In this document: piece after piece, positions 6,261-44,894 of the stretch | How the letters are laid out: every line of letters begins with the position of its first letter | Position numbering within the stretch: the stretch's first letter is position 1 | From: Diplonema papillatum | Taxonomy: Eukaryota; Euglenozoa; Diplonemea; Diplonemida; Diplonemidae | Assembly: GCA_030068145.1 (NCBI GenBank) | Contig: JAPJBO010000662.1 | Location: 62,001-126,000 of the forward strand | Length of the DNA stretch: 64,000 bases | Direction: 5' to 3' | The notes under the pieces: generated by a model | What the model saw: only the letters and a program-made list of their open reading frames with translations | The model's database searches: none | Told to the model about the DNA's origin: nothing | Translations under genes and position numbers: made by a program

Positions 6261-7900
6261 GTGTTTGCTAGTTTCCTTTCTATCCCCGAGCAGGCGTTGC
6301 TTTTGCCAACGATGTTCACGCGGGCGGGTAAGGTCCCGCGTAGCCGGTCGTTGTTTGCAGCTGGATCTCGCGGTCCCTGCTCAATGGTCTTCGGTCCGGT
6401 GCTCTTCTTCGCGCGCGCGGGAAAAGGCACGCAGCGGCACGAACATGTGTGTGTGTCGGCGGCTAGTGTTTGAGAGTGAAGGTTCGCTTGCGAATCCTGT
6501 GATTTCTTTTTTTGAAGTCTCCGGGTTGTGTAGGGAGGCGTGCAAATGAGGTTGCACTGCTGTTCTTTCGTGTCGTTCTGGTGCAAACTCACAGTTTGCA
6601 CAGCGCCCCAACTTCGTCTTCTGCACTGTGGATAACCGCTGCTTGACGCCCGTGCCACTGCAGTACAGCTGTAGACGTAGAGCTTGACTTGACCGTGTAG
6701 CAGGCTTCCCCGGCACGTGCTCGCAACAAGGGGAGGTGTCGCCGTTCACCAGCTAAATCCGTTCCGAAGTGCCACTTCGGAACAGCGCCGTGTCACTTTC
6801 GAAAAGGGCCGGACACTGTGAGCACCCTTCCGAATTGCTTCTCCGAGTACCTACAAAAAAAGACTGGCGCTTCGTTTCGTCCGCGTGTCGGTTGATCATT
6901 TCCCGCTTGTATTCACCTTGTTTTCAATGTCATGTTAGAAACCTGATCACCAGCATACCACGCGGTCTACGTCTTTGTGGCGTGGTGTGTACAATACGTT
7001 GTAGGGCAACCCGCAAGATTGTTAACACTAAAAAAGGAAGAAATGGAGCAGTAGCACCTTGCTTTGAAATTGTCGGCGAAGGGCGAGGAAACAGAGGGAG
7101 AAGCAAGACAGCAAGACAAGCGAGAAATGCTGTCTGGCGGATGACACATGGGCCTAAGTCTAACATGAGAAAAGCGCGTCCGATGCGGGTAAAAGGGAGG
7201 ATCAGTCTTGCCGTCAATGCGCAAGCGTTGCATTTTGCCCGAAGTGTCCGCTGATTGCCAACGGCGACGTTACAACGGGCTTCTGCCACCTCCTCATTTT
7301 CTGGCTTGGACAGCCAGCTCCCACCTGAAACCCGACGAGAAGAGCAACGCCATGCTTTGTTTCTATTTCTAAATACACAACAAAAAAAAAACGGTTTCGA
7401 CTTGTTTTGTTTTTTTTTTTTTTTTTTTGCTGGGAAAGAAGTGCGTAGTCTTGTTAGGAGATGGAATAGAACGACGCAAACACACGAGAAACTCGCTTGG
7501 TGGTCACGAACGGCCGGCTCTAAGGCCAAGTAATGACCGTCTCTGGGACCGGCTGTCTTTTCCAAGAGAATGGACAGAGGGCCGGGGTTCTTTCTGGTCT
7601 AAGCTTTTGCGGCCAAACGGCTGGAGGCAGCCTGCTCTTCAAAAACTACTCCCGGCAATCGATCAACTTCCCGGACAAGCTCGCCCCAACGCGAGAGACA
7701 AACGAAAGCGAGAGCAAAGTGGATTTCAAAGGCCGGCCTTGCGTGTACCGCCAGCAACTTACGCCGACCATCATGCCCTCGTCAGCCGTTCATACGGACG
7801 CCTGCCGATTCTGTTTTGTTTGAAACAGACTGAGGCTCAGAGCCAACATTTTTTTCGAGCAGCAGGTACCAGGTTGTCGACTTCCATTCATAGATGGGGG
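6260..7900. other. no gene recognised
   Basis: Only short reading frames without domains. Features seen are an A-run and a long T-run around 7381-7430 and otherwise unique sequence. Confidence 0.4.
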
Positions 7901-11340: not shown

Positions 11341-14300
11341 GCGTACATGCTGAGCATTGAGTTCTTTTAAGCACATGAACCACACGGATCAACATGCACT
11401 GCCTTGAAAGTCAGGTTATCGGATGACGTCGTCACCTGCCATTGCGTCGTCAAGGTCGAGCATTTGTGGAGCTAGCGGGGTTTGGCTTTCTTGCGATTCC
11501 GAAGACTGAGTCGGCGAGTACGATGGCGGGCAGGAGTGCCCGTTTTCCACTTTCGAGGGCATTGGTGTGCCCGTGGTCCCCGGTCGTTTCTGAGAGCTGC
11601 TTGCCCTCGGTACCTTCTTCTTCCTTCGATGCACCCCTGAGTCGGGGGTGGTCGCCTTCGTCTTCTTCCGCTTGCGGCCGGCGATCGGGCCTTCCTTCGG
11701 GGTGCCGAGCACCCTCTTCTTCCGCGCTGGTCGTTCGCTGGTTCCTGGCGTTGGTGGCGGCCTCTTGGTTGCCCGTCCGGTCGACGCTGTTTCCTTTTTC
11801 GTTGCCGCGAGCGGCGCTCGCGCCGCTCGCTTTCCTACTGGCGTTTCCCGCTGTACACTCACCTGGGTGGGTGAGGAGGGCCTCTTCTTCTTGCTGCGTC
11901 CGGGGGTTGACTGGACGTTCGTCTTGTTGGACTGGTGGTGGCCGCGGCTGCAACATGCCGCCGGTCGCCTCTGCGTCAGCGTAGGGAGCCTTCTGCACTC
12001 TTGGCAGGTGGCTCTGCCATGCGTGCGGCAGGCATGATGCCCGCTGCGGCAACACGCCGCCGCCGTCTTGCACTCGCCGCACTTCGTCGTGCTGTGCTCT
12101 GTGCACACCGCGATCGGCTGCCCATCGTTCGCGTGGTGATGGTGCCGGCAGCACATCTCTACCGTGGGAACGTCCCTTCGGACGAGTGCTTTGCACGCCT
12201 CACACTTCCCTTTGTGATGGGTCGCGCATGTGACGAGTGCCTTCTCTTTTCCGACTCCCGGCATATGCACGGGGTCTGGGTGTAGTTGTGGTGGGGCAGG
12301 CAGGGCCCACCTCGCCGCTCTCCCGATCGTCCAGTCAGGGTACGTCGGGCACTGCGTCCCTACATCGCTTCCTTTCACTTGTTCCTCAAGTATCGTCCCC
12401 GTGTGTGCCTCGCGAAAGCGTGGCCTGGGCCGTATACCCGATATCCCCGTGATGCCCATGAACGACAGCGACGTCGTCGGGCACACCCTCTCTCCTCTCA
12501 TGCAGCTTCCCAGCCCTTGCTGTGCCGCCAGCTTGTCCAACGCGCTCATCATGCAGCGCAGGACGTTTCCCCGTTCTCTCACCCCCTTCGGCGCATTCCC
12601 GTGCAGCGGCATGCTGAGGCCCGAGAAGAGTTCAAAGTCGATCGCAAGCTCCAGCATTGACGCCTGCCCGTTCTCGGTCCATTGCATGTCCGACAGCCAC
12701 GCTACCAACGCATAAAACGTCGGTAGTCCCCAGGTCTTGTTCCGCTCCCACGCCCATGCCGGGGCAATCCGCGCGAAGGGGTGGTCAAATTTCTCGGCAG
12801 GCATCGCATCCGCTCTCGACCAGGGGGTCGTGGGGTTCCTGGCCACCCAGCCACGTGCTTCGAGCCCAGCCCGTTCCGCAAGGATTTCAGCCATCATCTC
12901 CTGGAGCCGCCTCGAGAATTGGGCATTCTCGGGTACTACCACACCGTGTTCCAGCGTGCATCTGGGCCAGTCGGCCCGGTTGGCTGCCATCAGCTCGACA
13001 TGTGCCTCTCGTCGCCGTATGTGCGAGTACGCTCCGCAGTCCCAGAATACGTGTTTCTCGTCCTCGGTGTCGCCGCTTCCACAGTGCTTGCAGCTGGGCG
13101 CCTGCGGCTCAGCTCCGGCCTGCCTCATCCGCGACGTGTACTCAGCCGTGTTCACACCCCCCGCCAACGCTACACGTATTAGCCTCGCGGTGTGCGCGGG
13201 ACATTCACGCATCCTCCAGAAGGTGTTCGTCCGCTCCAGGTCGGCTCTCTGTATGCCCTCAAATCCCGGCCGCCTCGCCACCAGTCGGGACCACGTCTTC
13301 GCCCTCAAGTCCGCCCTAACTTCATGTCCCCTCTTCGAAGGTGCCGAGGCTAACGGGTCATATGTTGCACCATTCCTCAGCGTGCGAGACAGGGGCCCGG
13401 GTCCCCATACGTATCCACACTCCTCCATGCTCCTCATCGCCAGTCCGACTGGCCCCAGGGGTAGGTCCCCCTCGGCGTATCTTCCCCGGATGCTCTCCAT
13501 CAGAGGCAGCAGTCGTGGCAACCTCTCGCACGCCGCGTAAAACGCTGTCGTCACCCTATATGCTAGGCATGTACCGGGATCCGTCAGGTGGCCCTTCTCC
13601 TGAAAGTTTAGGACCATCTCCCTCGCGCGCTTCGGGTTGGATCCACCCCAGATCAGTCCCATCACCGACGTCGTCAGCCGTTTCATCGCCACTTTCGATA
13701 CCGGCGCGAAAGAGCATCCTGACAGCGCCGCCGGTAGCACATTCGACTGCACAATCCGGACCCGCTTTTCGTACCGGAACGGCGCATGGCGGAGGCCTTC
13801 CGCCAGGGAGTCGTCTACTACGTCCACTCCCTTTTGCAGGGCGGCCTCCGACAGCCTGGACAGCAGTGTGGCGTCGTCCGCGTATGACTTTGGACTCACA
13901 CCCCCCGCTTCTCTCTTGACCGTTTTCATCACTACCGACAGCAGGGCATTGATGAGTATGACGGATACAGGGCACCCTTGAAGGATACCGTTGGTCACCC
14001 TGAACTCCCTGCCCACCCCTAATGGTAGCTTGAAGCGTCTCGCGAGCAGTCTGTAGATAGCCCTCAGCGGCTTGAGAACCCGATTGTGCAATCCTAAGTC
14101 CTCGGCTAAGCGCAGTACTATCTCTCGTGGGACCATGTCGAAGCATTTCCGGAAGTCCAGCGCCACACCGTAGAGCGGCTCCCCGTCTAACAAGGCGTCC
14201 TCCATCTCGAGCCCAATTTCCATCAAGACGTCCTCGATCCGGTGACCTGGTCGAAAGCCTTTCTGTCCTTCTTCGATCCATTCCTCTTGCCACAGTACTA

Positions 14301-15407
14301 TGTCCGCCAGCCTGCGGCAGGCCCATAGGCGGTACACGGCGGATGTGACGGTTATCGGTCTTGTGTGCAGCGGGTCTTGACTCTCATCCTTCGGCACCAT
14401 CGACACCAGCGCAGTTGTCATGCTTGCCGGCCAGTCTCCAGTTGCTTCGACCAGGTTCATGACGTCTGCAAGTGCATTCAGCAGGGGGAGCGGCAACTCC
14501 CGCAGTTCAGCCATACGCCAGCCATCCACCCCTGACGCGCTTTTCTTCGGCTTCTTCCTCAGCAGAATTCGCAGCTCCTCCCCCGTGATTGTTCCGGCTT
14601 CCATCATATGTGGGCCGATGTGATCCCGGAACCGATCCCGAAACGGCTCGTACTCCGGCTCTGGCCCGTCCTTGTACTTACGCAGGATAGGGTCCCACGC
14701 AGTGTTCAGCACCTCGTCCATCTCGTCAACATTTGCAGTCACTCCCGCCCCCTTTCGCAACACCCCCGACGGTTCAGCGCGCCCGGCGCAGATGGTTGTC
14801 AGACATCGTCTGCTCGCATCGGCCCTCTCGTTCAGCTTGTCTCGGTATTTCGTAAACCTGGCCGCCGATCCCTCCTTTCCGAGCCTGCTCGTCTCTTCCC
14901 GCAATGCCGTGAGAAGCTGCTTCGCCTCCTCATGATCCGGGAATCCTTCTGTCCCTTGGCCATCTTTCATGCACGCCTGTGCCAGCCGCCTGCTGTTCTG
15001 CCAGCAACGGGATACCTCATGCGGAACTGCCTCCGGCCCGCGCCGTTGCGCAAGGTAGCTGCAGATGCGTTCCATCCTGTGGATGGCCTTCCGGAGCCGT
15101 AGCTGTCTGCTGTTCGCCGCCCCCGACCCGTCGCTCGCAGTGCTTGCCGTGATGCAGACTCTCTTAGGTGACGTCTTTACCCCCGTCCTGTACTTCTTCC
15201 CCTTTCTTCCGCAGGGATTCCGAAGGCATCCTGCAAGTACTGCTCACTGACTCGTGACCACTCGAGCCAGGCCTCTTCCACGCGTTGTGCTGCCAGCCGT
15301 TCTGCGGAATCGGAGTTGGCTAGTCTCTGTACGGCTTCTCTGTAAGCTTCTGTGTCCGAGAGGCCCCACTTGGGTCCCCCTTGAGCATTGAGTTCTTTAA
15401 GGTGCAA
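11341..15407 (-). mobile_element. LINE-A, 5'-truncated non-LTR retrotransposon
   Basis: The minus-strand element begins right after the 3' end of another LINE tail (about 15384) and ends in the family's 3' motif ACTTAAAAGAACTCAATGCT near 11355-11375. It lacks ORF1 and the endonuclease; the first recognisable residues (near 15390-15180) align with the linker between endonuclease and RT of the LINE at 42.8-48.2 kb. It encodes RT, a CCHC knuckle and a Cys/His-rich tail. One frameshift lies near 15180. Confidence 0.85.
11416..15075 (-). CDS. LINE reverse transcriptase with Cys/His-rich C-terminus
   Basis: Catalyses target-primed reverse transcription in related elements. RT motifs: RPITVTSAVYRLW (about 239-251), GFRPG (273-277), motif A VALDFRKCFD (Asp307), motif B NGILQGCPVS (362-371), motif C YADD (398-401). 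About 65 residues present in the 44.8-kb LINE are missing right after KGVDVVDD (about 422), removing motif D and following sequence, so this copy is probably dead. A CCHC knuckle follows (C662, C665, H675, C680). Three Cys/His units with CCRxxHH...CxxH...CxEC spacing (about 958-1048) resemble B-box fingers. The last 170 residues are basic and disordered. The frame continues upstream of the ATG (TGVKTSPKRV...), past a +1 shift near 15180, into residues reading LNAQGGPKWGLSDTEAYREA. Confidence 0.85.
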   Translation of the reverse strand: MERICSYLAQRRGPEAVPHEVSRCWQNSRRLAQACMKDGQGTEGFPDHEEAKQLLTALREETSRLGKEGSAARFTKYRDKLNERADASRRCLTTICAGRAEPSGVLRKGAGVTANVDEMDEVLNTAWDPILRKYKDGPEPEYEPFRDRFRDHIGPHMMEAGTITGEELRILLRKKPKKSASGVDGWRMAELRELPLPLLNALADVMNLVEATGDWPASMTTALVSMVPKDESQDPLHTRPITVTSAVYRLWACRRLADIVLWQEEWIEEGQKGFRPGHRIEDVLMEIGLEMEDALLDGEPLYGVALDFRKCFDMVPREIVLRLAEDLGLHNRVLKPLRAIYRLLARRFKLPLGVGREFRVTNGILQGCPVSVILINALLSVVMKTVKREAGGVSPKSYADDATLLSRLSEAALQKGVDVVDDSLAEGLRHAPFRYEKRVRIVQSNVLPAALSGCSFAPVSKVAMKRLTTSVMGLIWGGSNPKRAREMVLNFQEKGHLTDPGTCLAYRVTTAFYAACERLPRLLPLMESIRGRYAEGDLPLGPVGLAMRSMEECGYVWGPGPLSRTLRNGATYDPLASAPSKRGHEVRADLRAKTWSRLVARRPGFEGIQRADLERTNTFWRMRECPAHTARLIRVALAGGVNTAEYTSRMRQAGAEPQAPSCKHCGSGDTEDEKHVFWDCGAYSHIRRREAHVELMAANRADWPRCTLEHGVVVPENAQFSRRLQEMMAEILAERAGLEARGWVARNPTTPWSRADAMPAEKFDHPFARIAPAWAWERNKTWGLPTFYALVAWLSDMQWTENGQASMLELAIDFELFSGLSMPLHGNAPKGVRERGNVLRCMMSALDKLAAQQGLGSCMRGERVCPTTSLSFMGITGISGIRPRPRFREAHTGTILEEQVKGSDVGTQCPTYPDWTIGRAARWALPAPPQLHPDPVHMPGVGKEKALVTCATHHKGKCEACKALVRRDVPTVEMCCRHHHHANDGQPIAVCTEHSTTKCGECKTAAACCRSGHHACRTHGRATCQECRRLPTLTQRRPAACCSRGHHQSNKTNVQSTPGRSKKKRPSSPTQVSVQRETPVGKRAARAPLAATKKETASTGRATKRPPPTPGTSERPARKKRVLGTPKEGPIAGRKRKKTKATTPDSGVHRRKKKVPRASSSQKRPGTTGTPMPSKVENGHSCPPSYSPTQSSESQESQTPLAPQMLDLDDAMAGDDVIR

Positions 15408-15684
15408 GTGCCATCAAGGCAGGCGAGCACTGTTCACGGGCTAGCGTTACTTTATGACGTCGTCCGTCGGGAGAGTCAACGATGATGAGGATGTGGTCAA
15501 ACTAGCCATTTCCAAGTCAAGTTCAATTCCCGCTCGCTTTCGCGGTGCGGACTTTCCGGGCCGGTTTGGCTGTTTCCGGGTCGACGATGGGGAAGAAGTC
15601 AGGCATTCCATTTCGTGATCGAGCGTAGAGTTGTTCACGGCCTGCCGCGATCGCTGAGCAGGGGTTGCCATGTAGCCCGTATAG
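15384..15684 (-). mobile_element. short LINE 3'-tail copy
   Basis: Encodes 74 residues, from MATPAQRSRQAVNNSTLDHE to TLPTDDVIK (15671-15447), almost identical to the C-terminus of the ORF at 41480-42640, then the 3' end CTTAAAGAACTCAATGCT. Compared with that copy it lacks about 960 bp, yet its 5' flank (ATACGGGCTACATGGCAACC) is the same. LINE-A abuts its 3' end. Confidence 0.8.
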
Positions 15685-15689
15685 GTCTA

Positions 15690-16049
15690 AGTCAACACTG
15701 CTACTTTCATGGGATGTTCACCGGGGAAGGGTCCGACCTAACCGTTAGTCAACAGCAACGTCGAAAAGGGGGAGGGGAAAGAAGATAGAAAATCGGTGGG
15801 GTTGACAAGCTCGTAGGTGGTTGTTTGTAGATCAGTACAACCTTAAACTACGCCTAGCACGCGGCCAGGCGGTCTTTAGCGGACCTCCAGTACATTAAAC
15901 GCAAGCCGGCAGGTCGTCATCAGACGCGGCACGAAAAGCAAACTTCGCCGGCGCAGCACTTCAGCCTTGCGTCCTCTTATTTACAGCGGGCACCGTACCT
16001 GACCTCAGCCCCGCTAGGCCGAGATTCCGGTTGTTCCGCAGGGCAAACA
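15690..16049. other. no gene; sequence between USP stop and LINE tail
   Basis: Non-coding sequence that may include the 3' UTR of the PLE-USP element. No repeats noticed. Confidence 0.35.
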
Positions 16050-17390
16050 TCACTCCCCGAAGTTGACGTACGTGCAGAGACGTTCGTGCGCACGCAGGCC
16101 TCTGAGGCCCCGGAACAATCGACCGTCCTTGTTGCGGTCGGTGAAGCAGCGCTTGCAGCGCAGTTCCGAGGAGTCCTTGGGCTGTCCAGGTGGCTGGCCG
16201 TGTGCTGTCAAAGCGGCGTCGGGAGGCATGGGTTGGCAAGGTTCCAGATTCGCGTCGGTAAAGGGCGGACTAGAAGGCATCAGCGGGACTACTGTCGTAG
16301 CCATCATCGTAGGCGATAGCAAGTGTTCGACCACCTCGTGGGACGCATTGGGGATTCGTACGTATGCGGCGAGGTATACGTCAGTCCAAGGCACGTTGTC
16401 GACGTGCAAGACTCGTTCGTCATCGAAAAGCGTCCATTGCATCCCTTGCAAGACGTAGGTGACAAAATGGCCGTTGGTCGTACTTTGTCCCGTGTGTACA
16501 ACCACCGCGGAAAGGCGCAGTGTGCTGTCCGGCAGTCGCAGGAGGAGCGGTAGGGAAGCGTCATTCCGTAGTCTCGCACCATCGCTTGCGCAAATGCCGA
16601 ACTGCAACAGCAAGCACTCGGAGGCCACATGCACGTTCATGCTCTCCACAACGGATCCAGCAGCTCCGCAGTCACACCTTCTCTCCGGATTCATGATTCC
16701 ACGAACACAGAATGCGTCCTTCACCGGCCTTCCCCGAGGGACTTGCAAACACTGTACCGGCTGATGGCGGGTGGAATCGGGGCCACAGGCGATACATCGT
16801 GTTGTAGTCGTCACCGTGTTCTCCAGGCACGTCTGGAAAAGCCGCCGATCCGGACAAGCCTCCTCCGTCTCGTCCGGCCCTAGGGAGCTGTCTGTCCTAT
16901 CCGGAATCGCAACCAAGGCCTCGTGTGCGTCGTGCTGTCGCGCATCGCAGAACATTGGGAGCATGGCGAGGATTGTTTCAGCCCCTATCCTTCGGCTGTC
17001 TTGGCTGAGCCGGCTCCTCCCCGAGCGCGAGCTTACCAGTAGGACGAAGTACGTCAAGAACTCCTTCAGGAACCCCCGGAAATTCAGAGGATTCTGCGCA
17101 AGACTGTAATACATGTTCTCGATCGGTTCCACACGCATCAACAGCTGCAGTACCGCATTGAGAAAGCAGGTATTCCCAAGGTTCGGGAGGCCGGCAGGTT
17201 CAAACGGTGACGGGTCGAACATGCGGGAGGGCCGTTGGACGCAGTTGACAGCCTGGCGGCTGACAGCGGGTGAAGATTCCAGCATGTCAGGCACTGCATG
17301 GGACACGTCGCAGCACCGCTTCGGTCCAGCCTGAGCAGCCTCATCGTCCCTGCGCTTGCGCTTTCCTTTAGTCGTCCCATCCTGGGGCAC
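16050..17390 (-). CDS. ubiquitin-specific protease (USP) domain of PLE-1, with C2H2 finger
   Basis: A deubiquitinase of the USP (C19) fold. Cys box LPNLGNTCFLNAVLQLL (catalytic Cys75, codon 17168-17166); QQD-box variant CDARQHDAHEALV (149-160); zinc-ribbon-like CIAC and CDC pairs (about 199-241); His box TNGHFVTYV (His308) and LFDD (about 321-324). A C2H2-like finger CKRCFTDRNKDGRLF...HERLC ends the protein. The marked start is a GTG; no ATG start is convincing. Upstream the same frame runs on through one TGA (17444-17442) into the PLE C-terminal region to 17819. In PLE-2 the matching junction is open, so this is a fusion with a nonsense codon here, or a readthrough site. The catalytic residues look intact. 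Confidence 0.85.
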   Translation of the reverse strand: MPQDGTTKGKRKRRDDEAAQAGPKRCCDVSHAVPDMLESSPAVSRQAVNCVQRPSRMFDPSPFEPAGLPNLGNTCFLNAVLQLLMRVEPIENMYYSLAQNPLNFRGFLKEFLTYFVLLVSSRSGRSRLSQDSRRIGAETILAMLPMFCDARQHDAHEALVAIPDRTDSSLGPDETEEACPDRRLFQTCLENTVTTTTRCIACGPDSTRHQPVQCLQVPRGRPVKDAFCVRGIMNPERRCDCGAAGSVVESMNVHVASECLLLQFGICASDGARLRNDASLPLLLRLPDSTLRLSAVVVHTGQSTTNGHFVTYVLQGMQWTLFDDERVLHVDNVPWTDVYLAAYVRIPNASHEVVEHLLSPTMMATTVVPLMPSSPPFTDANLEPCQPMPPDAALTAHGQPPGQPKDSSELRCKRCFTDRNKDGRLFRGLRGLRAHERLCTYVNFGE

Positions 17391-17441
17391 AAGATCACGA
17401 CGCTGCTTCGGAGCCGCAGTGGAGGGCCGATCGGGCGTATC

Positions 17442-18762
17442 TCATTCCGTTCGTGTGCCAGGTCGAGGACGGTCCCTGTATCTCACGAAGGCCTTCTCAG
17501 CGAGCAGCCTCTCGACCGCTTGGTCGATGGACTCCAAGTCGGGCATCTGCAAGATGCGTTCCACTTCATGTACGAGCCACACGAAGTGCGCACGGATCTT
17601 CTCGCAGTGGTCACCAAACTTCGCTTTTGGGTACGTGTCCAGTAACCATTTGCGAAACCCACTTATCAGGACACTCTTGCGGTCCCGTCTCATGAGCTTC
17701 AGCACCGTGTTGTTCATCTCGGTTTTAAAGTCATGGAGGTTGTTCGCAATCCTGCCGTTACGCACGAGCGCTCCGATGAGGATACTCGACCCAAAGTTCG
17801 ACGGAGCCGTAGAGAGCACGGATGTGTACGCTAAGGGTTGGTACCGTTATGCCTTCGCTTTGTCGAGGACTGACAGGCGCATGTATCTCCTCCCGGACAT
17901 CTCGGAGACCTCATGTCGAATCCGAGTACCAAGGAAAGTGGCGTCCCCAACCTTGGCGTTTGTCTGTTTGTACCTCATGTTGTACACAGATTCCGGTGGG
18001 GGTTTTGTGCCGAAACACAACAGATCGTCAATGAAGCGGCGTGTCAGGCTAAACAATGCCGCACGTTGAGTGTCCCCGTCTTCCAAGAGTCGCATCATGT
18101 ATTTTCGCTCTTTCGCATAGCAAAAGAGGTTGGCGGTGTCGAGAAGCGTTCGCACCCATTGGGATGCCTAGCGTCTGCCTCATCAGTACCCTGTTGACCA
18201 GAACATAGGTATTCGCCAAGCAGAAAGACAAGAGGGTTTGGAGCTCCTGTGCCGAATACGCTGCTTCATGTGACCTAACCTCCGTGTTTACCATAAAGGC
18301 GAAACAGCGCTTCTTACGAGTCGGCGGGTGTTGGCTCTTCGGACGTACTAATGCGAGTCTTCCCGCGTCCACGTTCAACCGTGCAGCTTCCGCCGCGAAG
18401 GCCTCATTTATCGTGTCCGCAACCGCATTAAGCAGCTCTTCAAGCTCCAGCTGGTCGTACATAGTTGTAAAGTCAAATGTACCAGCGTCCAGCTGCGCGA
18501 GTTCGTCCGCGTGTGTCTTCAGGAAGAAGGCCGTGTCGTCGCTCGACTCCGTGATCCAAAAGTATCGGTAGCCTGTCGCGTTGAACCGAATGCCGGCTCC
18601 CACCCGGGAAAGGTCAACCGTGGCTAGTATCTTCCTCCGTATCATCCTCGCGAAGTGCCGAGGGGCGTCCTTGAATTGCTCCTCAACGAACTGGGTCACA
18701 GCTTTTTGTCGACCTCCCTACAAACGGCTTCTTCCCCACTGTCCGGTCGGAACTTGCGATCC
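17442..18762 (-). pseudogene. PLE-1 reverse transcriptase and C-terminal region, broken
   Basis: RT motifs: A-like FDFTTMYDQLELEELL (about 18485), B-like LGIPMGANAS (about 18170), C-like RRFIDDLLCFG (about 18030), then ATFLGTRI and the conserved C-terminal block FGSSILIGALVRNGRIANN (about 17790). The upstream block ELISLFDKDRKFRPDS (about 18780-18740) is in another frame. Frame changes occur near 18700 and 18160, and a TAA lies at 17847. The FIDD/YIDD active site and GIPMG block are PLE signatures. Not functional as it stands unless the shifts are sequence errors. Confidence 0.75.
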
Positions 18763-20178
18763 TTGTCAAAAAGCGAAATCAGCTCGCTTGACGTCTTGAG
18801 GAGGTTGTGCCTGCCCGCACGCATGCCCTTGGATGTGGTAGCCGTCTAGAAGGTAGCGTTGGCAAGGGCATTCGTCAGGGGGAGGGGCCGGGGCAGAAAT
18901 TGTTAGTCGCGAAACATCCGTGAAGTTTGACAGAAGGACCCCGAGGGGAGGATTGAGCGACGTGGAAACCCTCGTGTTCACGAAGTCCGTTGAGTCCGCG
19001 AGCACTTCACGGAGTTCGGTATCGTGACAGAAAACGGTGGCTAGCTTCCTTTCATCCATCATCTTGCTCACGTGTCGTATGCAGAACCAAGGCGTTCGTG
19101 CTGCACTCTTCTTTTTCTTTGCAAGATGGTTGATTTCACAAAGCCTCGCCGTGAGTAGCTCGTCCAGGATTGCTACCTTCGGGTGCTGCAGGTGCTCAAC
19201 CATGAACATTCGCACCCAGGTACGAACTCTGTAAACCCGGCTCTTCATCCACGGGTTCACGTCGGATGCCCGCAGGGTGTCTTCATCGAGTCCGAACATG
19301 TGATGCAGCTGCTTCCGGATGCCGAAGTATCGGCCTCGACTCTGGTCCACGTGGATCTGCCAGGCGTCTCCGCGCTCCCGGGGATTTTCCGGAGTAGACT
19401 GCCCGCCGTCCGGTTTGCCCTTGAACGACGGAGGAGATCGCGGCTTCGTACCTCGCTTGTTAAAACCGCTTGCAGTTTTAACCATATTGCACTGCGGCTT
19501 TAGCCTCGCGATGAAAGCCATCTCTATCGGCTCGGCAACCTGGTCGAAGTTACCCCCAGCCGCATAGAACGTCTGGGATGTCGTAGAGGATGAACGCGTA
19601 AGGCGGCGAGGGGAGGTTCTGCAAGTGTCGCTTGAGCCTGTCCTGCTTGGTTTTCCGGCCAGACCAATGCTTTGTAACCCGCTCCTGCATCGTCTTGCTC
19701 GTCTTGCCGATGTATAGCAGGTTGGCGTGGGCGTCAACTAGTCCGTAGATGAGACCCGTGGCGCGGTAGTTGTTTGCGTCTGTCGGGCGCTGGAGTCTCA
19801 TCGTCGCGTACGTGTGGTCCAGAAGCCTGCGATACCTCTTCTGGAACCGGGCCGTGAAAATAACTCGCCCTGCTCTTTCCACTTCGGCCAATCTATCTGT
19901 GTCATCTTCTCCGTTTTGCCACGTACACAGTCAGTCTGGAAGAACGGCGCAAGAAAGGGCTTTGCGAACTCCGGGCGTCGACGCATGTCCGCGTCAGCTG
20001 GTGGCAAACGTACCATGTTGACCGCGAAGCTCTTGCGAGGATTGTGGGGTCGGGTCCGTATCGCAAGGGGTAGTGATCTGTACAGGGTCGGAGTTGCCGG
20101 GGGTAGTAGAATTGGTCGGCTGCGGTGTTGACGGAACGTAACGGAACTGATTTGAATTGCTTGGGGGAGGCTGTACAA
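18763..20178 (-). pseudogene. PLE-1 GIY-YIG endonuclease and zinc-finger region, broken
   Basis: The nuclease core GLIYGLVD...LLYIGKTSKTMQERVTKHW lies in 19891-19550. Its final helix (EMAFIARLKPQCNM, near 19530) is in another frame, reached by a shift near 19570. Further on, DECPCQ...H...HAC (about 18870-18810) forms the CxC-type zinc finger usual in PLEs with N-terminal nuclease. Upstream, a basic segment (NPRKSFAVNMVRLPPADADM, near 20040) joins by a frame shift near 19860. The nuclease nicks target DNA in active PLEs. Confidence 0.7.
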
Positions 20179-20249
20179 AGGGGTGGTAACATGGCTTGGG
20201 TGGTGAGCGGGTTGCCGTTCTGATTACTGGCGGTACTCTTCACGCGACG

Positions 20250-21060
20250 TACACGGTGTTGTTGTTAAGGGTGTCGGTTTGTTGCTAAGCTCAAGTCTTA
20301 GCGCGCTTTTTTCGGGGGGTGCGTTTTGTGGTCTTGGTTGGGGGTTTTCCCGGTTTGTAGAAGCGAGGCCGCACGGGGGCAGGATGGCACCAAGCCTAGA
20401 CTCTGCCCGGTCTCGTTGCCGATGTCTTGTGGTACAGCGGGGCGAAGTTAATGCGATTTAACCGTCTCCCTACCTGTACCGGTTGCGTTTCTTCGTCGGT
20501 TGTGCCATGGGCAGTTGGTTTTCGACCTCCGTACGCTGTGTCAGAGGTCTCAGATCGTGGGCGGGTTATTTGTGCGAGAGGTCCCCCCGCGGCGTTTGAG
20601 GGGACTGGGTGGGTACGGCCGCCAATCCACCTAGACTCCGCCCCCTCATTCCGTCCTAGCATGAAGCATTGACCACGGACATTTCGGGATAGGAGTCACC
20701 TTTCATTCTTGAGCGAAACCACACTCGAAAGGTACTCGCCCTCATCCAGAATTGCTGCTTTGCGTCTATTGTCTTCGTCGACATTTACATCTAAAACTAT
20801 GTACAAGGGAGTGCGGGGGTTGTTACCAGTCAGCGCTATCGCACGTCGCGCGATCGATCAGGCGGAGCGGTCTGGCAGTCAAGCGTCTGTTGTCGCGGCA
20901 ACTGAATAGCCCAGTGTCGTACACACGTACTCAAAAACGTCATTACTCTATCAGCGCACCAATCATGCGAGTTGCTAACGTCAGCAGGGTGTACCGATGG
21001 CCTCCAGGGAGGAGTTACGGCTCCGGCGACGTAGCGTTCGGGCGTGAGTGTTGAACGTCG
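20250..21060. other. no certain gene; possible PLE-1 N-terminal or 5' region
   Basis: A minus-strand frame at 20662-20396 is open but has no recognisable domain. It could be PLE-1 N-terminal sequence. The rest is unassigned. Confidence 0.3.
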
Positions 21061-21892
21061 TTCGTCGGGCGTGGGTGTTGAACGTCGTGTAAAACCGAAG
21101 TGGTGCCGTGGAGTGTCGTCGAAGCAGTAGCGTCATGTAGGGTTTACTGTCTACCGTCAGTGTGAGCCGCCTGAAGTGAAGTGCGGGTGGCTGGTGTTTA
21201 AGTCCAGTGTTTTGCATCGGCCTACTCTTCACGGCAGGGGTAGGTCACGTCTGCTGGGTGCGGATGTCGGACAAGCGGCAACGTATGGCGTAGAGTACGT
21301 GTGTAACGGATGTGGGGAGGGTAGTGATGGGTAGGTTGCATCACGCAGGTTCACTGACTACCGCCAGTGCGAGCCGCCTGGAGTGGTGCGCAAGTCCGGC
21401 GTTTTGCATCGGTCTACCTACACGGCAAGGGTAAGTCAGGACGGACAGCGACGTCTGAAGAGTGGATGTTGGCCACGCGGCAACGTACGGCGCAGAGACC
21501 GTGTGTAACATATCGTCGGGAGATGGGGGAGGAAGGGATGGGGCAGGTAGCGTCAAGTAGGTTCTCTGACTACCGCCTGTGCGAGCCGCTTGAAGTGCGG
21601 GTGGCCGGTGTGCAACCCCAGCGTTTTGCATCGGTCTACTATACACGGCAAGGGGAAGTCAGGACGGACAGCGACGTCTGATGAATGGATGTTGGGTACG
21701 CGGCAACGTACGGCGCAGAGACCGTGTGTAACATATCGTCGGGAGATAGGAGAGAGGAAGGGATGGGGGTAGCGTCACGTAGGTTCTCTGACTGCCGCCT
21801 GTGCGAGTCGCCTGGAATGCGGGTGGCCGGTGTGTAAGTCCGGCGTTTTGCATCGGCCTACTCTGCACGGGGGGGGGGGGTCGTTGTATAAT
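21060..21892 (+). repeat. about 190-228 bp tandem repeats, four copies
   Basis: The anchor GCGTTTTGCATCGG(T/C)CTAC recurs near 21211, 21397, 21625 and 21842. Each is followed by ACACGGCAAGG, GGACGGACAGCGACGTCTG and CGGCAACGTACGGCGCAGAG, with length differences of tens of bases. The array ends in a G-tract with TGCACG(G)nTCGTTGT. It lies between two same-strand PLE copies, so it may be a PLE-associated or target satellite. Confidence 0.8.
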
Positions 21893-22096
21893 GGTTTAGC
21901 TTGAAGGGTGTTGGAAAGGTTGAAAAACGTTTTGGGGGTCACCGTCGGTTTGTGTTACTATTTTTTTCTGTTTATATTTTTTTGGGGTAATTATTTTTTC
22001 GGGGGTTCGCGTAACCCTTCTTTTCCGGAAGAAGAAGCAAGTCGGGTAGCCGATCCTGAGTAGGAAGCACCATGGAGGGTGACGGGGCACGGACAG

Positions 22097-23289
22097 TCAT
22101 GTCGTGGGCATCCGGGGGATCCGGACAAAGGCCGCGAGGTAAACGTCACCCCACGGAATGTCGTCGACGGAGGTGACGTGCAGGTCGTCGAAGAGGATCC
22201 ACCCCGTGTCTTGCGCAACGTACGTGACGTAGTGTCCGCTAGCCGTATCCTCCCCCATGTGCACCACGACGGCTGCGAGGCGTAGCAGATGGTCCGGCGG
22301 TCCGAAGAAGGGGGGCAATTTCACGTCATTCTGGCGCCTGGCACCGTTTCTCGTGTAGATGCCAAACTGCATCAGAACACGTTCAGCTGTCAGACGGAGA
22401 TCCATACTTTCAACAACCGTACCTACAGCCTTGCAGTCGCATACTCTCTCCGGATTCACAAACCCGTGCACGTGGAGAGAATCTTCCAGCTTCCTTCCGC
22501 AAGGAATTTGCAAACATTGCATTACCTGACTGCTGGAAGAAGTGCGTCCACATGCATTATGAGTTGGTCCAGCCGTTCTCCAAGCATGTTACGAAGAGTT
22601 GGTAGCCCGCAGGGGGTCCCCGTTTCGTCCGGACCCAGCGTCGCACTAGTCGCGCTGAGTATCGCTACCAGAGCTTCGTGCGCATCGTGCTGCCGTGCAT
22701 CGCAGAAGTTTGCGAACATGCTCAGGATGGCTTGGACACCCATTCTCCGACAATCCCGGCTACGCTGGTCACCACTGTCGCGAGAGCTTGACAGCATGGC
22801 AAAGTAAGCCAGGAAGTCCCCGAGAAATCCACGGCAGTTGGGGAGGTCCTGCGCAAGGCTCCAGTACATCTCTCTGATCGGCCCAACCCGTAGCAGGAGC
22901 TGCAGCACCGCACCAAAGAAGCACGTGTTCCCCAGATTCGGGAGGCCGGTGGGGCCAAACAGCGTCGGATCATGCCTCACGGAAGGCGGGTGTGTACAAA
23001 CGACTGATCGGTAGCACGTGGATGGAGGGGCAACTGTAAGAACCGGTTTGTGGACATTCGAGCGGCGTCGCTTTGAAGCCCGTTGTTCGTCCTCTTCAGC
23101 CTGGCCTTTCCGCGTGGACTCACGGGGGGCGGTCGTGTCAGCCTGTCGGGTCGGTGCTTCGGTGGGCGGTGATCGGGGGGAGTCATCTTCAGCTTCCGGG
23201 ACAGGTTGGGGGCGGCCATTGTACTTCACGAAGGGTCTTTCAGCCAGAAGGCGCTCGATCGCAAGGTTCATCGCGGCCGGCTCTGACAC
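22097..23289 (-). pseudogene. USP domain of PLE-2, one frameshift
   Basis: A deubiquitinase domain fused downstream of PLE sequence without a stop. Cys box LPNLGNTCFFGAVLQLL (about 22950), CDARQHDAHEALVAI (about 22690), then after a frame change near 22530 the blocks QCLQIPCGRKLEDS, CDCKAVGTVVESMD, the His box ASGHYVTYVAQD (about 22230) and LFDDLHV. Key Cys and His residues are kept. The linker before the USP is basic and Ser/Thr/Pro-rich (ASKRRRSNVHKP), similar in character to PLE-1. It lacks the C-terminal C2H2 finger seen in PLE-1. Confidence 0.8.
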
Positions 23290-23895
23290 TTCATTGCGGG
23301 CACAACATGCAAGAAGGCCTGGAAGAAATCAGGAGCCGCGGGTAGCACCCGAGAGCGCCACTCACAGCACCTTCAATCTGAGCCCAGACCTGACCCGCAC
23401 TGACAATCCCGCATGTGTCCTCAGAGCCAATCCTTTTCCCGAAGTTACGGATCCAGTTTGCCGACTTCCCTTACCTACATTGTTCTGTCGGCCAGAGGCT
23501 TTTAGCCTAGGAGACCTATTGCGGTTAACGGTACGGCCCGATGCAAGAGAATGAGATCTCCCCTGTTTTTTCCATGCACATCCACAAGACATTGGCAGTG
23601 ATAGAGAGCGTTCCACCTCGTGAATGAGCCAGAAGAAATGCCCCCGCACCTTCCCGCAATGCTCGCCAAATTTGGCCTCTGGGTATGTGTCCAGGAGCCA
23701 TTTGCGGAATCCACTCTTCAAAACGCTCTTCCGGTAACCACGCCGCATGAGTTTCAAGACCGTGTTGTTCATTTCGGTCTTGAAATCATATATGTTGTTG
23801 GCGATCCTACCGTTGCGAACGAGGGCCCCAATGAGGATGCTCGAACCGAACTGCACGGCGGGGGGGGGGGGTAGGTACCGGGAAAAAATGGGCAA
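22097..23895 (-). mobile_element. PLE-2: truncated Penelope-like copy with USP
   Basis: The 5' end is cut at FGSSILIGALVRNGRIANN (about 23850), preceded by a G/C homopolymer. The PLE C-terminal region (FRKWLLDTYPEAKFGEHC) is interrupted at about 23590-23295 by some 290 bp absent from PLE-1, either an intron-like or an inserted segment. It then continues as AAMNLAIERLLAERPFVKYNG straight into the USP domain. There is a frameshift near 22530. It has diverged clearly from PLE-1. Confidence 0.75.
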
Positions 23896-38431: not shown

Positions 38432-39361
38432 CTAACCGAGACAAGCAGAATTGTCTAAGGGATTGTTCCCCCACTGACAGGGAAAGTGAGCTGGGTTTAG
38501 ACCGTCCAAAAAAGAGAACGAGCATACGTCCTCGTCTTCCTCTTCTTCGAGGAACACGACCTCGGAGTGCGGGCGCTTTTTAGTCCTCGCGGAACGTCGG
38601 GGGGCGGACGCGGGCTCGGAAGCGTCGATTTTAGGCTTCCATGTGCCGTCGGACTCGACGATGATGCTTTGGATGGAGGTATCGTTTTCGATGGTCGGGC
38701 TGCGAAGGACCCCGTTGATGAACGAGTCGAAGATGAGAGATGACAACGGGGCGGGTTCCTGGCATTCGGGGCAGCTCCAGACCCGGGATGTAGTGCAAAA
38801 GTCGATGTAGGTCCGGAGATCGAGCGCGTTGATGTGCGCACATGTTCTACTTCGCACCGGGAACGTGACCCGACGAAGCGTCACCGGATCGCAGAGGGTT
38901 ACATCTGTTTTAGACAAAACAACCTGCTCGCCCACGTCCTCCTGCGACATCCGCAGTGCCAACGGCCTGGTGTCGCCGTTCGGGCAGTGGACGTCTTCAA
39001 GGATGCGAGCGCGAGCTTCTTCGAAAACTGCGGTCACACCCTTGTTTTCGACGACGCACACCGCCAGTATGACGGTGCTTTCCACCTTCGTCGCTTCGAG
39101 CGACACGTTGAGTGTGCAGGTCAGCGGAGAGACGAAGCCGGTGAGGTCGACCGGGCTGACGACACGGTGCCACGACTTTGTTTCGTCTTTCGGCCGCCAC
39201 GAGGCGTGCGGCACTTCGGCTTCCTTGCCATCGACGGTGATTGTGAGATGGTCAGGCCACTGCGCTGGCTCCAGGTCACGGCTCAGGCACGCGAGGTGCA
39301 GGCGAGCCGACTGCTTCCGCGCGTTGGTGACCATCCGGTGCTCGTTCGTGGTGAGAACCAC
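38432..39361 (-). CDS. PIAS/Siz-type SUMO E3 ligase (SP-RING)
   Basis: SUMO ligases of this family bring the SUMO-charged E2 to substrates in the nucleus. The SP-RING reads VTLCDPVTLRRVTFPVRSRT, then CAHINALDLRTYIDF and VWSCPECQEPAPLSSLIFDS (about 38860-38700), with the Cys/His pattern of the family. A PINIT-like beta-rich region precedes it (about residues 40-110). The tail is basic (APRRSARTKKRPHS) followed by a SUMO-interacting motif, VVFLEEEEDED, near 38530. No SAP domain is seen. The marked start is a GTG; the frame is open slightly upstream and an acceptor GGCAG lies just before it, so a 5' exon is likely. Confidence 0.75.
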   Translation of the reverse strand: MVLTTNEHRMVTNARKQSARLHLACLSRDLEPAQWPDHLTITVDGKEAEVPHASWRPKDETKSWHRVVSPVDLTGFVSPLTCTLNVSLEATKVESTVILAVCVVENKGVTAVFEEARARILEDVHCPNGDTRPLALRMSQEDVGEQVVLSKTDVTLCDPVTLRRVTFPVRSRTCAHINALDLRTYIDFCTTSRVWSCPECQEPAPLSSLIFDSFINGVLRSPTIENDTSIQSIIVESDGTWKPKIDASEPASAPRRSARTKKRPHSEVVFLEEEEDEDVCSFSFLDGLNPAHFPCQWGNNPLDNSACLG

Positions 39362-39523
39362 GCGCAGCTGCTGCCGAATTCGCAGTGATGAGCTGCTCGC
39401 CCGTAGAGCCGCGATTGCCTATTTTGTTTATGCGTTTTTCGAGGTTCGAGATCCGGTAGGGTGAAGTCTCCGGAAAAGTAACCACGTAGCCCTTTCTTGC
39501 TCTAAGAGTACCCATTCATGAAT

Positions 39524-39576
39524 GGTCACACGGAGACCTAAAACCCCGGATTTTCAAGCGAACTTTAACTCTAAAA
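39524..39576 (+). promoter_or_regulatory. repeated leader upstream of USP-3
   Basis: 53 bases beginning GGTCACACGGAGACCTAAAA and ending at the ATG of the USP ORF recur at 48299-48352 with few changes. This is probably a promoter/5' UTR shared by a transposon family. Confidence 0.6.
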
Positions 39577-41265
39577 ATGCTCTACCCCCCATGGCATGCC
39601 TGGCTAACCGAGGAGTTCCAACGGCTACCGCGACTCTTCAACCAGCTTAAACCTTTCCTGGGGTACAGCATAGCGCGTTACAAAAGCGGCAAACCACGAA
39701 TCAGCGAGCCAGAATACGCCGGTAAGCACCCCCCCGTCAACTTCCACCCAGCGGAGCTCCCCGGCACACCAAACGAGTTGGCCACCCCGGCGGACGATTG
39801 TTCTACTACGACCACCGAACGAGAAGACAGCCTCGACGCAAACCCCCCGCAGCCCACGTTAAACTGGAGCCCGAAGATGAGAGTAGCCAACCTGGTCACT
39901 GTCATCACCCTCGCAGCAGCAGTCGCAGCAGGTGGTGCCAGAACCATGGCAAAGGTTTCTCGGCACACTACGACCAACTCCTGCTTTCTGCAAGCGGCAA
40001 TGAACTTGATCGCCGCGACGGACATGGCTCAACAAGTCGTGATGTACCAGAAGTGCCCACATCACGCGAAGGGCGAATGCACAGCGGCCGTATACGAATG
40101 GGTTACGGGCAATCGATCGCAAGCGACGCGCCTGCACGTCTTTGCTAGCATCGACGGACCATTCGGCTACGGCCAACAGTGCGACCTCGGGGAAGTGCTG
40201 AGAGCAATCATCTCCGTGCTACTCATCGAAAACTTGGCACACCGAACCTGTCGGCACCGCCAAGACTTCTTCGATTGCTTATGGCACGAGACCACGGTTG
40301 CCACGACCTGCTCAGTGTGCAATCACACGAAGTCGAACCGGCCCGAACCGCAGGATATCACTTTCCTACCACCCGCTGAAGCCGCAATACAGGGAAGTTT
40401 GAACCATGTCGGCCAGTGGCGTAAGGCTGCCGACTACAAATGCGGCGCATGCAAGCACATCAACACCACATCAACCAAAACTGTCTTTCACACCGTCAAC
40501 AAGATGGTTATGATTCAACTCCAAAGGGTCAACAAAGACGGAACCGCAAACCGCACCGCCGTGCACCCAGAACACTCAATCCGGTTACCAGGGCTGGGCG
40601 CGCAGCTTAATTTGAAAGCAGTTGCGGTACACACCGGCTTCAATGATGCTGGGCACTACCGCATCCACGCCTACAACGCTATCGCAGACACCAACCAGCG
40701 GTGGACGTGTTTTGACGGTTTACAAACGTGCAGTACGGCGACACCCCGCTTCTCCGACAACGAGACCTACCTATGCGTCTACCAGCCCGTGGACGATCAC
40801 ACAAACGAAGCCCCATCTGTGGTTCCCTTACCTTCCGACGACCAACGCGCACGACCAGCAGACTCGACGCAAGACCTACTCGAAGCCTTACGAGGAGACG
40901 AAAAATCCCAAAACCCAAGCACCGCAGAATCCCTGCAACCCACTACGGAACCAGAATCTAGCGACGAAGATGAACTCCAGTGCCCGCACTGCCTCACGCG
41001 CACGACGGAAACAGGGGAGAAGTTCAAAGGTTTCCAAGGCCTCCGAACCCACCAACGACGATGCAAGAACAAACACCGCTCACCAGCACGGACGAAATCG
41101 ACGTTGTCAAACACTGCGCTTAAGAGAGAAAGATGTCCTTTTTGTCACAGCGACGGACGAACCGCGGGGAAACCGCTTTTCAACAGTCTACGACACCATA
41201 AACCGTGGTGCAAAAAGAGGCATCAAAAACTGAGAACAACCAGAAGGAGTCCTTCAGTCGAATAA
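39577..41265 (+). CDS. USP-type deubiquitinase with two C-terminal C2H2-like fingers
   Basis: An intact 562-codon ORF starting with ATG just after the repeated leader. It has an unusual Cys box TTTNSCFLQAAMNLI (Cys136) and no obvious QQD box. A zinc ribbon follows (CSVC about 244-247, CGAC about 287-290), then KMVMIQLQRVNKDG and the His box NDAGHYRIHAYN (His360), then WTCFDG. Two fingers follow: CPHC...HQRRC and CPFC...H-x3-WCKKRH. USP enzymes remove ubiquitin from proteins. The finger after the USP matches PLE-1. No RT is attached here; a LINE tail follows 180 bp downstream. Divergent from the two PLE-borne copies. Possibly an ORF of a separate mobile element. Confidence 0.75.
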   Translation: MLYPPWHAWLTEEFQRLPRLFNQLKPFLGYSIARYKSGKPRISEPEYAGKHPPVNFHPAELPGTPNELATPADDCSTTTTEREDSLDANPPQPTLNWSPKMRVANLVTVITLAAAVAAGGARTMAKVSRHTTTNSCFLQAAMNLIAATDMAQQVVMYQKCPHHAKGECTAAVYEWVTGNRSQATRLHVFASIDGPFGYGQQCDLGEVLRAIISVLLIENLAHRTCRHRQDFFDCLWHETTVATTCSVCNHTKSNRPEPQDITFLPPAEAAIQGSLNHVGQWRKAADYKCGACKHINTTSTKTVFHTVNKMVMIQLQRVNKDGTANRTAVHPEHSIRLPGLGAQLNLKAVAVHTGFNDAGHYRIHAYNAIADTNQRWTCFDGLQTCSTATPRFSDNETYLCVYQPVDDHTNEAPSVVPLPSDDQRARPADSTQDLLEALRGDEKSQNPSTAESLQPTTEPESSDEDELQCPHCLTRTTETGEKFKGFQGLRTHQRRCKNKHRSPARTKSTLSNTALKRERCPFCHSDGRTAGKPLFNSLRHHKPWCKKRHQKLRTTRRSPSVE

Positions 41266-44408: not shown

Positions 44409-44840
44409 CTCGTGAACTCGACGCTGGTGTCACATGGGGCTGGTGAAGACCAGCTCCATGTTGACTTCGAGGCGGTCTGCTGGACCAGCCACGACCTCTC
44501 CGGTGCCCCTGCAACCGCGCCACCTGACGCGTCACTTAACCACCACGACCCGAAGACCTCGGAACCAGCCGTCGCCTGCCTGGCGCCACTGCGATCCGAA
44601 CGCGACCCCGCGACGCGCCTCACACGGCGACGACTGTCGGCGCGGCGCTGTTGCAGACCACGAACACCTGCACGCACCTGGATACACCTTTCCCGCCGTT
44701 GCCCCCGGATGCATCTACCGCCCCTGTCGCCAACACGTACGACGTCCCAGTGCAAACGACACAGAAGACGACGCCGCCACCGATGCGCACCGCCCGAAAC
44801 CGCCCGCCCCGTAGGGAGGGGACGGCGATCGCTCGCGGAG

Positions 44841-44894
44841 ATGGCGAAAAAGCTTCTTCTGCTGGGGGGTGACGTAGAGACGAACCCCGGACCG
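44841..44894 (+). other. 2A-like ribosome-skipping peptide
   Basis: Encodes MAKKLLLLGGDVETNPGP, containing the invariant D-V-E-x-N-P-G-P. Ribosomes skip the Gly-Pro bond at such sites, releasing the N-terminal peptide. Here the 2A begins at the first ATG of ORF2, as in some trypanosome and sea-urchin non-LTR elements. Confidence 0.85.

Follow-up and report, generated by a model that had tools for sequence, protein, structure and literature searches.

A 64,000-nt stretch of the Diplonema papillatum genome (GenBank assembly GCA_030068145.1, contig JAPJBO010000662.1, forward-strand positions 62,001 to 126,000; hereafter the window) carries Penelope-like retroelements (PLEs) that encode a ubiquitin-specific protease (USP), a type of deubiquitinase (DUB), together with their reverse transcriptase (RT). 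Judged from the sequences, this PLE-USP fusion is real. In F1, the family of two of the window copies, intact, recent and multi-copy elements encode in order a GIY-YIG endonuclease (EN), a linker with a CxC motif, the RT, the USP and a C2HC finger, and copies across the genome exclude a chance fusion. A previous sequence-only reading of the window had proposed a PLE lineage that captured a USP plus a finger. The lineage stands and can be widened, with at least three families that carry a USP and one that carries an OTU domain. The capture of USP and finger as one unit is unsupported, because the finger also occurs beside an OTU domain (family F4) and, in protein P0013, without a detected DUB. 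The N-terminal position of GIY-YIG, the CxC motif after it and a third copy from another PLE-USP family, at 39490-41265 (+), go beyond that reading.

The fusion in family F1 across the genome

We searched the 271-Mb genome of the unicellular marine flagellate D. papillatum, in which F1 comprises three subfamilies, A, B and C. The RT search scored 86 of 645 candidates (87 rows), and 40 of the 86 lie within frames of at least 1500 aa. A scored USP follows downstream in 66 of the 86, at 352-358 nt in 65 cases (38 at 358 nt and 25 at 355 nt) and at 484 nt in one; PLE copies elsewhere therefore do not end before the USP, nor are the window junctions unrelated insertions, an outcome that the sequence-only reading had allowed for. 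Ten of the 20 RT matches lacking a scored downstream USP share the subfamily C score, and two of these, the only ones fetched among the 20, both encode a USP. The USP profile search scored 149 of 935 candidates. By score and place, 113 of the 149 rows were sorted as element-type (C39, with stops, may be host); frames of 1562 or 1585 aa are common among them, and a scored RT lies upstream in 66 of the 113.

Intact copies were found: 16 of the 22 fetched F1 copies (mostly chosen for long frames, so that this is no genome-wide rate) are full-length, at least 1500 aa, with GIY-YIG, RT, USP and C2HC finger in one open frame. All 16 full-length frames contain the USP and keep every motif checked (GIY-YIG, FIDDL, Cys, DAHE, His, FDD and finger). 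Subfamily C frames measure 1590 aa where intact. At the protein level, the D. papillatum NCBI protein P0003 is 100% identical to the RT stretch of the fetched copy L009 (contig C56), with GIY-YIG at residues 88-130 (Pfam, 9.8e-5) and the RT motif at 821. NCBI names the models P0003 and P0004 'putative ubiquitin carboxyl-terminal hydrolase 16', and users of the annotation should be warned that these models are retroelement polyproteins. A homologue search with the window USP alone returned two matches, and viral contigs gave no match to six P0003 peptide patterns.

The USP lies between the RT and a shared C-rich 3' end. Aligned to L009, eight other subfamily A copies share a 3' point at 7679-7692, whereas their 5' points range from 19 (the locus edge) to 5416, and the main blocks of the subfamily are 99.07-99.97% identical; subfamily B likewise has one 3' end and differing 5' starts. 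Near-identical copies with a common 3' end beyond the USP and varied 5' truncation indicate that the USP moves with the element. Runs of at least seven C were present at 16 of 18 3' ends (the other two have six) and in 9 of 15 5' flanks, whereas such a run occurs in about 1% of the 60-bp pieces of the window; the scan covered 37 nt at the 3' end, up to 71 nt at the 5' edge and 60 nt for the background. The 3' run may be the element's own tail. The 3' count excludes two copies (L026 and L027) whose computed end was not that of the element, and the 5' count excludes five (L009, L014, L015, L026 and L027) whose 5' edge was not fixed; the 5' edges of L016, L019, L020 and L022 are less sure. A check for a pseudo-long-terminal-repeat or tandem arrangement found one copy in L027 preceded by a partial 3' end, and 5' tandem repeats were seen.

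Purifying selection acts on the USP. When subfamily B was compared with subfamily C, the ratio of nonsynonymous to synonymous substitution (dN/dS) of the USP was 0.198 (95% interval 0.135-0.294; dS 0.64), that of the RT 0.061, of GIY-YIG 0.163 and of the finger 0.148, whereas the linker from RT to USP had 0.355 and the sequence that follows the USP 0.565 (0.33-1.02). Pairs that include subfamily A approach saturation at their silent sites. For F2, the values were 0.13 (0.079-0.20) in the USP and 0.39 in the linker. The F4 OTU gave 0.149, a point estimate without an interval from two copies, one with a broken frame.

Copies of the elements in the window

Copy 1 bears out the claim of the sequence-only reading that PLE RT, its C-terminal block and USP share one minus-strand frame with stops at 17847 and 17442. 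With the protein of an intact copy as query, tblastn aligned the minus strand from 20016 to 16053 in three parts (residues 1-479, 624-784 and 786-1485), the last of which falls at 18140-16053 in a single frame with 93% identity and runs from RT through USP to finger. The Pfam score of this USP is 79.5 bits, compared with a family cut-off of 23.9 bits. Two details had to be corrected. The stops are not the only damage, as the copy also has frame changes and lacks about 144 RT residues (query 480-623 unmatched by tblastn), and the finger, read before as C2H2, is of the C2HC type. Copy 1 is, on these features, a dead element. By blastn it matched the intact copy L014 with 93-95% identity over 18607-15655, 21277-18594 and 21870-21388, and its 5' end consists of tandem repeats of about 222 bp. 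Such repeats form the subfamily A 5' leader and were seen at 21141-21870 of the window and at 7507-8272 of L009.

The features of the three copies are as follows; motifs, boxes and fingers were read directly.

15655..21870, minus strand: copy 1, degraded, subfamily A of family F1 (GIY-YIG/RT/USP PLE), by blastn
19628..19756, minus strand: N-terminal GIY-YIG endonuclease core (Pfam PF01541, 1.1e-5)
18790..18870, minus strand: CxC linker motif (CPCQ...HACG)
18448..18477, minus strand: FDFTTMYDQL, which we take to be the RT motif holding the first catalytic Asp
18018..18035, minus strand: FIDDLL, presumably the RT motif with the catalytic DD
17724..17795, minus strand: PLE RT C-terminal block, as named in the sequence-only reading
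16395..17192, minus strand: USP (peptidase C19) domain of copy 1 (PF00443, 4e-22, residues 84-349 of the open reading frame (ORF) 16050-17441)
17154-17192, 16914-16937, 16455-16472 and 16419-16436, minus strand: USP boxes of copy 1, namely Cys, QHDAHE, His and FDD
16074..16157, minus strand: C-terminal C2HC finger (Cx2C...Hx4C)
21871..23850, minus strand: copy 2, of subfamily B, truncated at its 5' end and lying within the 5' repeats of copy 1 (blastn to L020)
22112..22947, minus strand: USP of copy 2, frame broken near 22560-22616 (PF00443, 2.6e-9 and 2.2e-9 in two pieces; tblastn; boxes)
39490..41265, plus strand: copy 3, family F2, with PLE C-terminal block, USP and two C2HC fingers (PF00443, 1.2e-6)
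39970-40773, plus strand: USP of copy 3
40981-41064 and 41134-41211, plus strand: fingers of copy 3

Copy 2 matched the subfamily B copy L020 over 23850-23593, 23288-22037 and 22032-21871 (blastn) and subfamily B protein with 96.5% identity over 23283-22609 (tblastn). Its PLE-to-USP junction is open in ORF 22522-23328, in agreement with the sequence-only reading. A C-tract, seen as a G-run on the plus strand, lies at each end of the copy, and about 300 nt inside it (23289-23592) have no element match. The frame of copy 3 is without RT. Adjoining the USP of copy 3, a minus-strand frame at 38432-39418 encodes an SP-RING/PINIT protein of the SUMO E3 type (PF02891, 1.3e-11), and the related locus L045 holds a minus-strand frame of similar length (316 aa).

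Related families and the origin of the module

Further PLE families carry a DUB at the same place. F2 is represented by one 2663-aa frame (L047), in which about 1200 residues of P/S/T/H-rich repeats are followed by GIY-YIG, CxC, RT, USP and two C2HC fingers; Pfam gave 1.1e-9 (38.7 bits) for the USP and 0.026, below the cut-off, for GIY-YIG, the motif of which is visible. This family has 94 matching places, from 74 scored of 2444 candidates. In F5, the RT end runs into a USP (9.3e-16, 58.6 bits) and no finger follows; the F5 gene model P0014 has GIY-YIG (6.8e-5) and no CxC was seen in it. F4, read without its N-terminus because the locus is cut, has a CxC, then RT, then an OTU domain (1.1e-8) and the same C2HC finger. 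Its OTU scored 36.1 bits in L051 and 41.4 bits in L049 against a cut-off of 23.3; directly ahead of GNC, L051 has Asn and L049 has Asp, and the nearest solved chain is OTUD3 (2.9e-5). USP and OTU are different peptidase families, both papain-like. A single genome thus holds related PLE families in which one position, ahead of the same finger, is filled by either of two DUB families. Genome-wide, 150 of 656 OTU candidates were scored (e.g. G000:C1760:17171-17479), many in repeated frames of 1876-2130 aa, which look like other transposable elements.

P0008, a 1662-aa protein from another source (a 6564-base ENA contig), matches 92% of the length of the RT query with 43% identity, and its C-terminal part carries five C2HC fingers followed by a USP (UCH, 3.4e-15, 56.8 bits). 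P0013, 45% identical to P0008, has RT and finger, and P0015 has a CxC with neither DUB nor C2HC finger detected. A finger of like spacing is present in F1, F2, F4, P0008 and P0013. The CxC motif lies between EN and RT in F1, F2, F4, P0008, P0013 and P0015, and both of its Cys are invariant across the six proteins of alignment A1. GIY-YIG precedes the RT within one ORF in F1, in F2 (with the sub-cut-off Pfam score) and, via P0014, in F5. The RT homologues P0011, P0012, P0016 and P0023, which we take to be PLEs (no tool assigns that name), also have an N-terminal GIY-YIG, some under Pfam cut-offs.

PLEs with an N-terminal endonuclease (Chlamys/Naiad), reportedly defined by Craig et al. 2021, have a CxC between EN and RT, an insertion in the RT fingers domain, no hammerhead ribozyme and a bias to insert at microsatellites; the EN of the Chlamys clade is without the CCHH motif. 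The elements described here resemble them in the N-terminal GIY-YIG, the CxC, the PLE-type RT, insertion at simple repeats and the lack of a hammerhead ribozyme, none being found at E up to 1 in four loci (L009, L013, L016 and L019). No CCHH motif was seen by eye in the F1 EN. In contrast to Chlamys/Naiad PLEs, the present elements have a C-terminal DUB (USP or OTU), a C2HC finger, C-tract targets and, in F2, a long repetitive N-terminus. The best reading of these features is a DUB-armed lineage of N-terminal-endonuclease PLEs. Excerpts of PMC12477816 place Chlamys in Ectocarpus.

In the RT tree (20 rows, including 11 of the 25 non-clade homologues of an earlier tree), the DUB-bearing elements clustered with P0013 (91/90), and P0015 came next to them (100/100 once it is included). 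F2, F4 and F5 grouped together (97/95) in an unresolved order; the F5 row is the RT part of the chimeric model P0014, labelled as DUB-bearing from the like RT end in L052 that runs into a USP. In the earlier tree, built on 32 rows, the wider group had 98/97 and the inner one 82/62. The DUB label needed two changes on the RT tree and never one in 200 bootstrap trees. The simplest history would be one DUB gain, one loss and one change between USP and OTU. We see even chances that the whole clade depends on deubiquitination, with a single ancestral gain, selection keeping the DUB across hosts and OTU taking the place of USP at least once. If so, retroelements in diplonemids would be in continuing conflict with a host restriction of retrotransposition that is based on ubiquitin.

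In the USP tree, F1, an MBL-USP gene and the window F2 USP fell together (88/93), P0008 and the window F2 row having very long branches; no host donor stood out among the 17 of 18 host candidates used, one being too short. By profile comparison, the F2 USP matched that of F1 (E 6e-13) better than it matched any host set examined (best 9e-8), and the F1 USP is nearer to canonical host USPs (best 5e-22). The MBL-USP gene (L042:3002-5107; G000:C9:544801-546906) is a 702-aa frame in which a metallo-beta-lactamase fold (MBL; PF00753, 3.2e-8) is fused to a USP about 55% identical to that of F1 (dN/dS against F1 0.196), and after which comes a block that shares 79% identity with the 3' untranslated region of the PLE. 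The MBL part was found at one place in the genome, and the gene looks like an old 5'-truncated PLE insertion turned gene part.

Possible roles of the deubiquitinase

In F1, F2 and F5, the USP retains both the Cys and the His box and has Asp as third residue, and P0008 has Asn there (by alignment; F5 by eye). We rather favour the view that the DUB is a working module of a single retrotransposon polyprotein, which probably shields the transposition complex or acts on chromatin, and we infer an active enzyme used in cis. The element would be transcribed through the DUB; its protein would bind its own RNA, nick DNA at C-tracts via GIY-YIG and prime reverse transcription there, and the DUB would act in cis, either on the transposition complex or on the chromatin of the target site. 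It could strip ubiquitin from the element's RT and endonuclease and so let them escape the proteasome, or strip it from histones or repair factors at the nick, and the finger may hold RNA, DNA or substrate. Of these two roles, we consider it more probable that the DUB protects proteins of the element itself, and the suggestion of the sequence-only reading that the USP counters ubiquitin-dependent degradation is plausible. That several PLE families of this genome encode such a DUB together with their RT suggests that these elements interfere with ubiquitin, a central control system of the host.

Several observations weigh against this view. What is said of the DUB's role derives from sequence, and the selection of most fetched F1 copies for long open frames bears on their intactness. 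No scored RT lies upstream of 47 of the 113 element-type USP matches, as expected from 5' truncation and from the scoring of only part of the RT candidates. The USP has 2.6 to 3.2 times the dN/dS of the RT. The seven NCBI gene models of cluster P0005 retain only the USP start; subfamily C DNA encodes the whole USP, so that this loss comes from a predicted splice, which if real would give USP-less products. P0013 falls inside the DUB group with no DUB detected, which means either that the module is not strictly required or that this prediction is incomplete. In P0008 the order differs, the fingers preceding the USP, and its USP is not tied to the others by profile comparison; as that comparison ties F2 to F1 and leaves P0008 open, independent DUB captures are possible.

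There is hardly any probability left that host USP genes lying beside PLEs, or an assembly artefact, mimic the fusion. The NCBI name of P0003 and P0004 would fit a host gene, but the 66 RT-USP pairs of near-constant spacing, the three subfamilies with their common 3' end, the second family and the second source speak against it, and this explanation was rejected on copies with different flanks. It is also improbable, though less extremely so, that the USP is a passenger (a transduced host gene) or a polyprotein-processing protease with no role on host ubiquitin. PLEs can transduce host DNA (excerpts of PMC6431247) and the USP evolves faster than the RT, yet dN/dS is far below 1 for the USP of F1 and F2 and low for the F4 OTU, the catalytic residues are kept, and two DUB families occupy the same slot. 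As to processing, Pfam scans of five proteins (P0003, P0004, P0005, P0008 and L047) detected no ubiquitin-like domain, which makes self-processing unlikely.

A more serious competitor, to which we give a minor share of the probability, is that the DUB has its main targets in chromatin or DNA repair (histone H2A/H2B, PCNA) where the element inserts, and not in the element's own proteins. The solved sequences closest to the element USP are USP36, USP12 and USP46, and the NCBI name points to 'ubiquitin carboxyl-terminal hydrolase 16'; USPs of the USP36/USP12/USP46/USP16 kind have histone roles. DNA-repair roles have been proposed for transposon Ulp1 and OTU domains (Ginger paper, PMC2836005, in part). 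However, the solved-sequence matches are weak (E 1.6e-9) and uninformative on substrate specificity, and in F4 an OTU nearest OTUD3 fills the same slot.

The fusion of a PLE with a predicted DUB is an addition to the known carriage of ubiquitin or SUMO proteases by other transposons. According to excerpts of PMC2836005, Ginger1, Helitron and Mutator elements carry OTU or Ulp1 domains, likewise on a mobility protein and C-terminal in Ginger1, but these are DNA transposons with OTU or Ulp1 instead of USP and no RT; the same excerpts give a Trichomonas vaginalis protein that joins transposase_11 to peptidase C19, a USP-type DUB on a mobility enzyme as here, which is a DNA transposase and neither PLE nor RT. 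Utopia/NeSL non-LTR (long terminal repeat) retrotransposons also carry a ubiquitin-like protease, Ulp1, which differs in being N-terminal and accompanied by a restriction-like endonuclease, in nematode families (PMC4640811, in part), and planarian Burro elements have ubiquitination-related domains (PMC6431247, in part). The sequence-only reading knew of no described PLE-USP fusion, and literature searches combining Penelope with ubiquitin, cysteine-protease, USP and diplonemid terms, and retrotransposons with deubiquitinase, likewise found no PLE-DUB fusion, although Craig et al. 2021 may mention accessory domains. A term search of the main text of the D. papillatum genome paper (PMC10161547) found neither 'Penelope' nor 'ubiquitin'.

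PLEs, whose mobility is poorly understood, would thereby gain an accessory enzyme pointing at a host pathway. DUBs of two families in one slot make the question of why transposons carry ubiquitin or SUMO proteases testable, and genetic tools are reported for D. papillatum.

Other NCBI models (P0007, P0009, P0010 and P0014, with names such as Kinesin-like protein 3, RRP12 and magnesium/proton exchanger) contain PLE stretches and are probably gene-model fusions with elements in or near genes. Elsewhere in the window, long frames lie at 11416-15243 (-), with an RT (RVT_1, 6.7e-15), and at 44409-48131 (+); the stretches 13811-14742 and 47278-46347 are 66% identical, which together with the RT points to what is probably another retrotransposon family.

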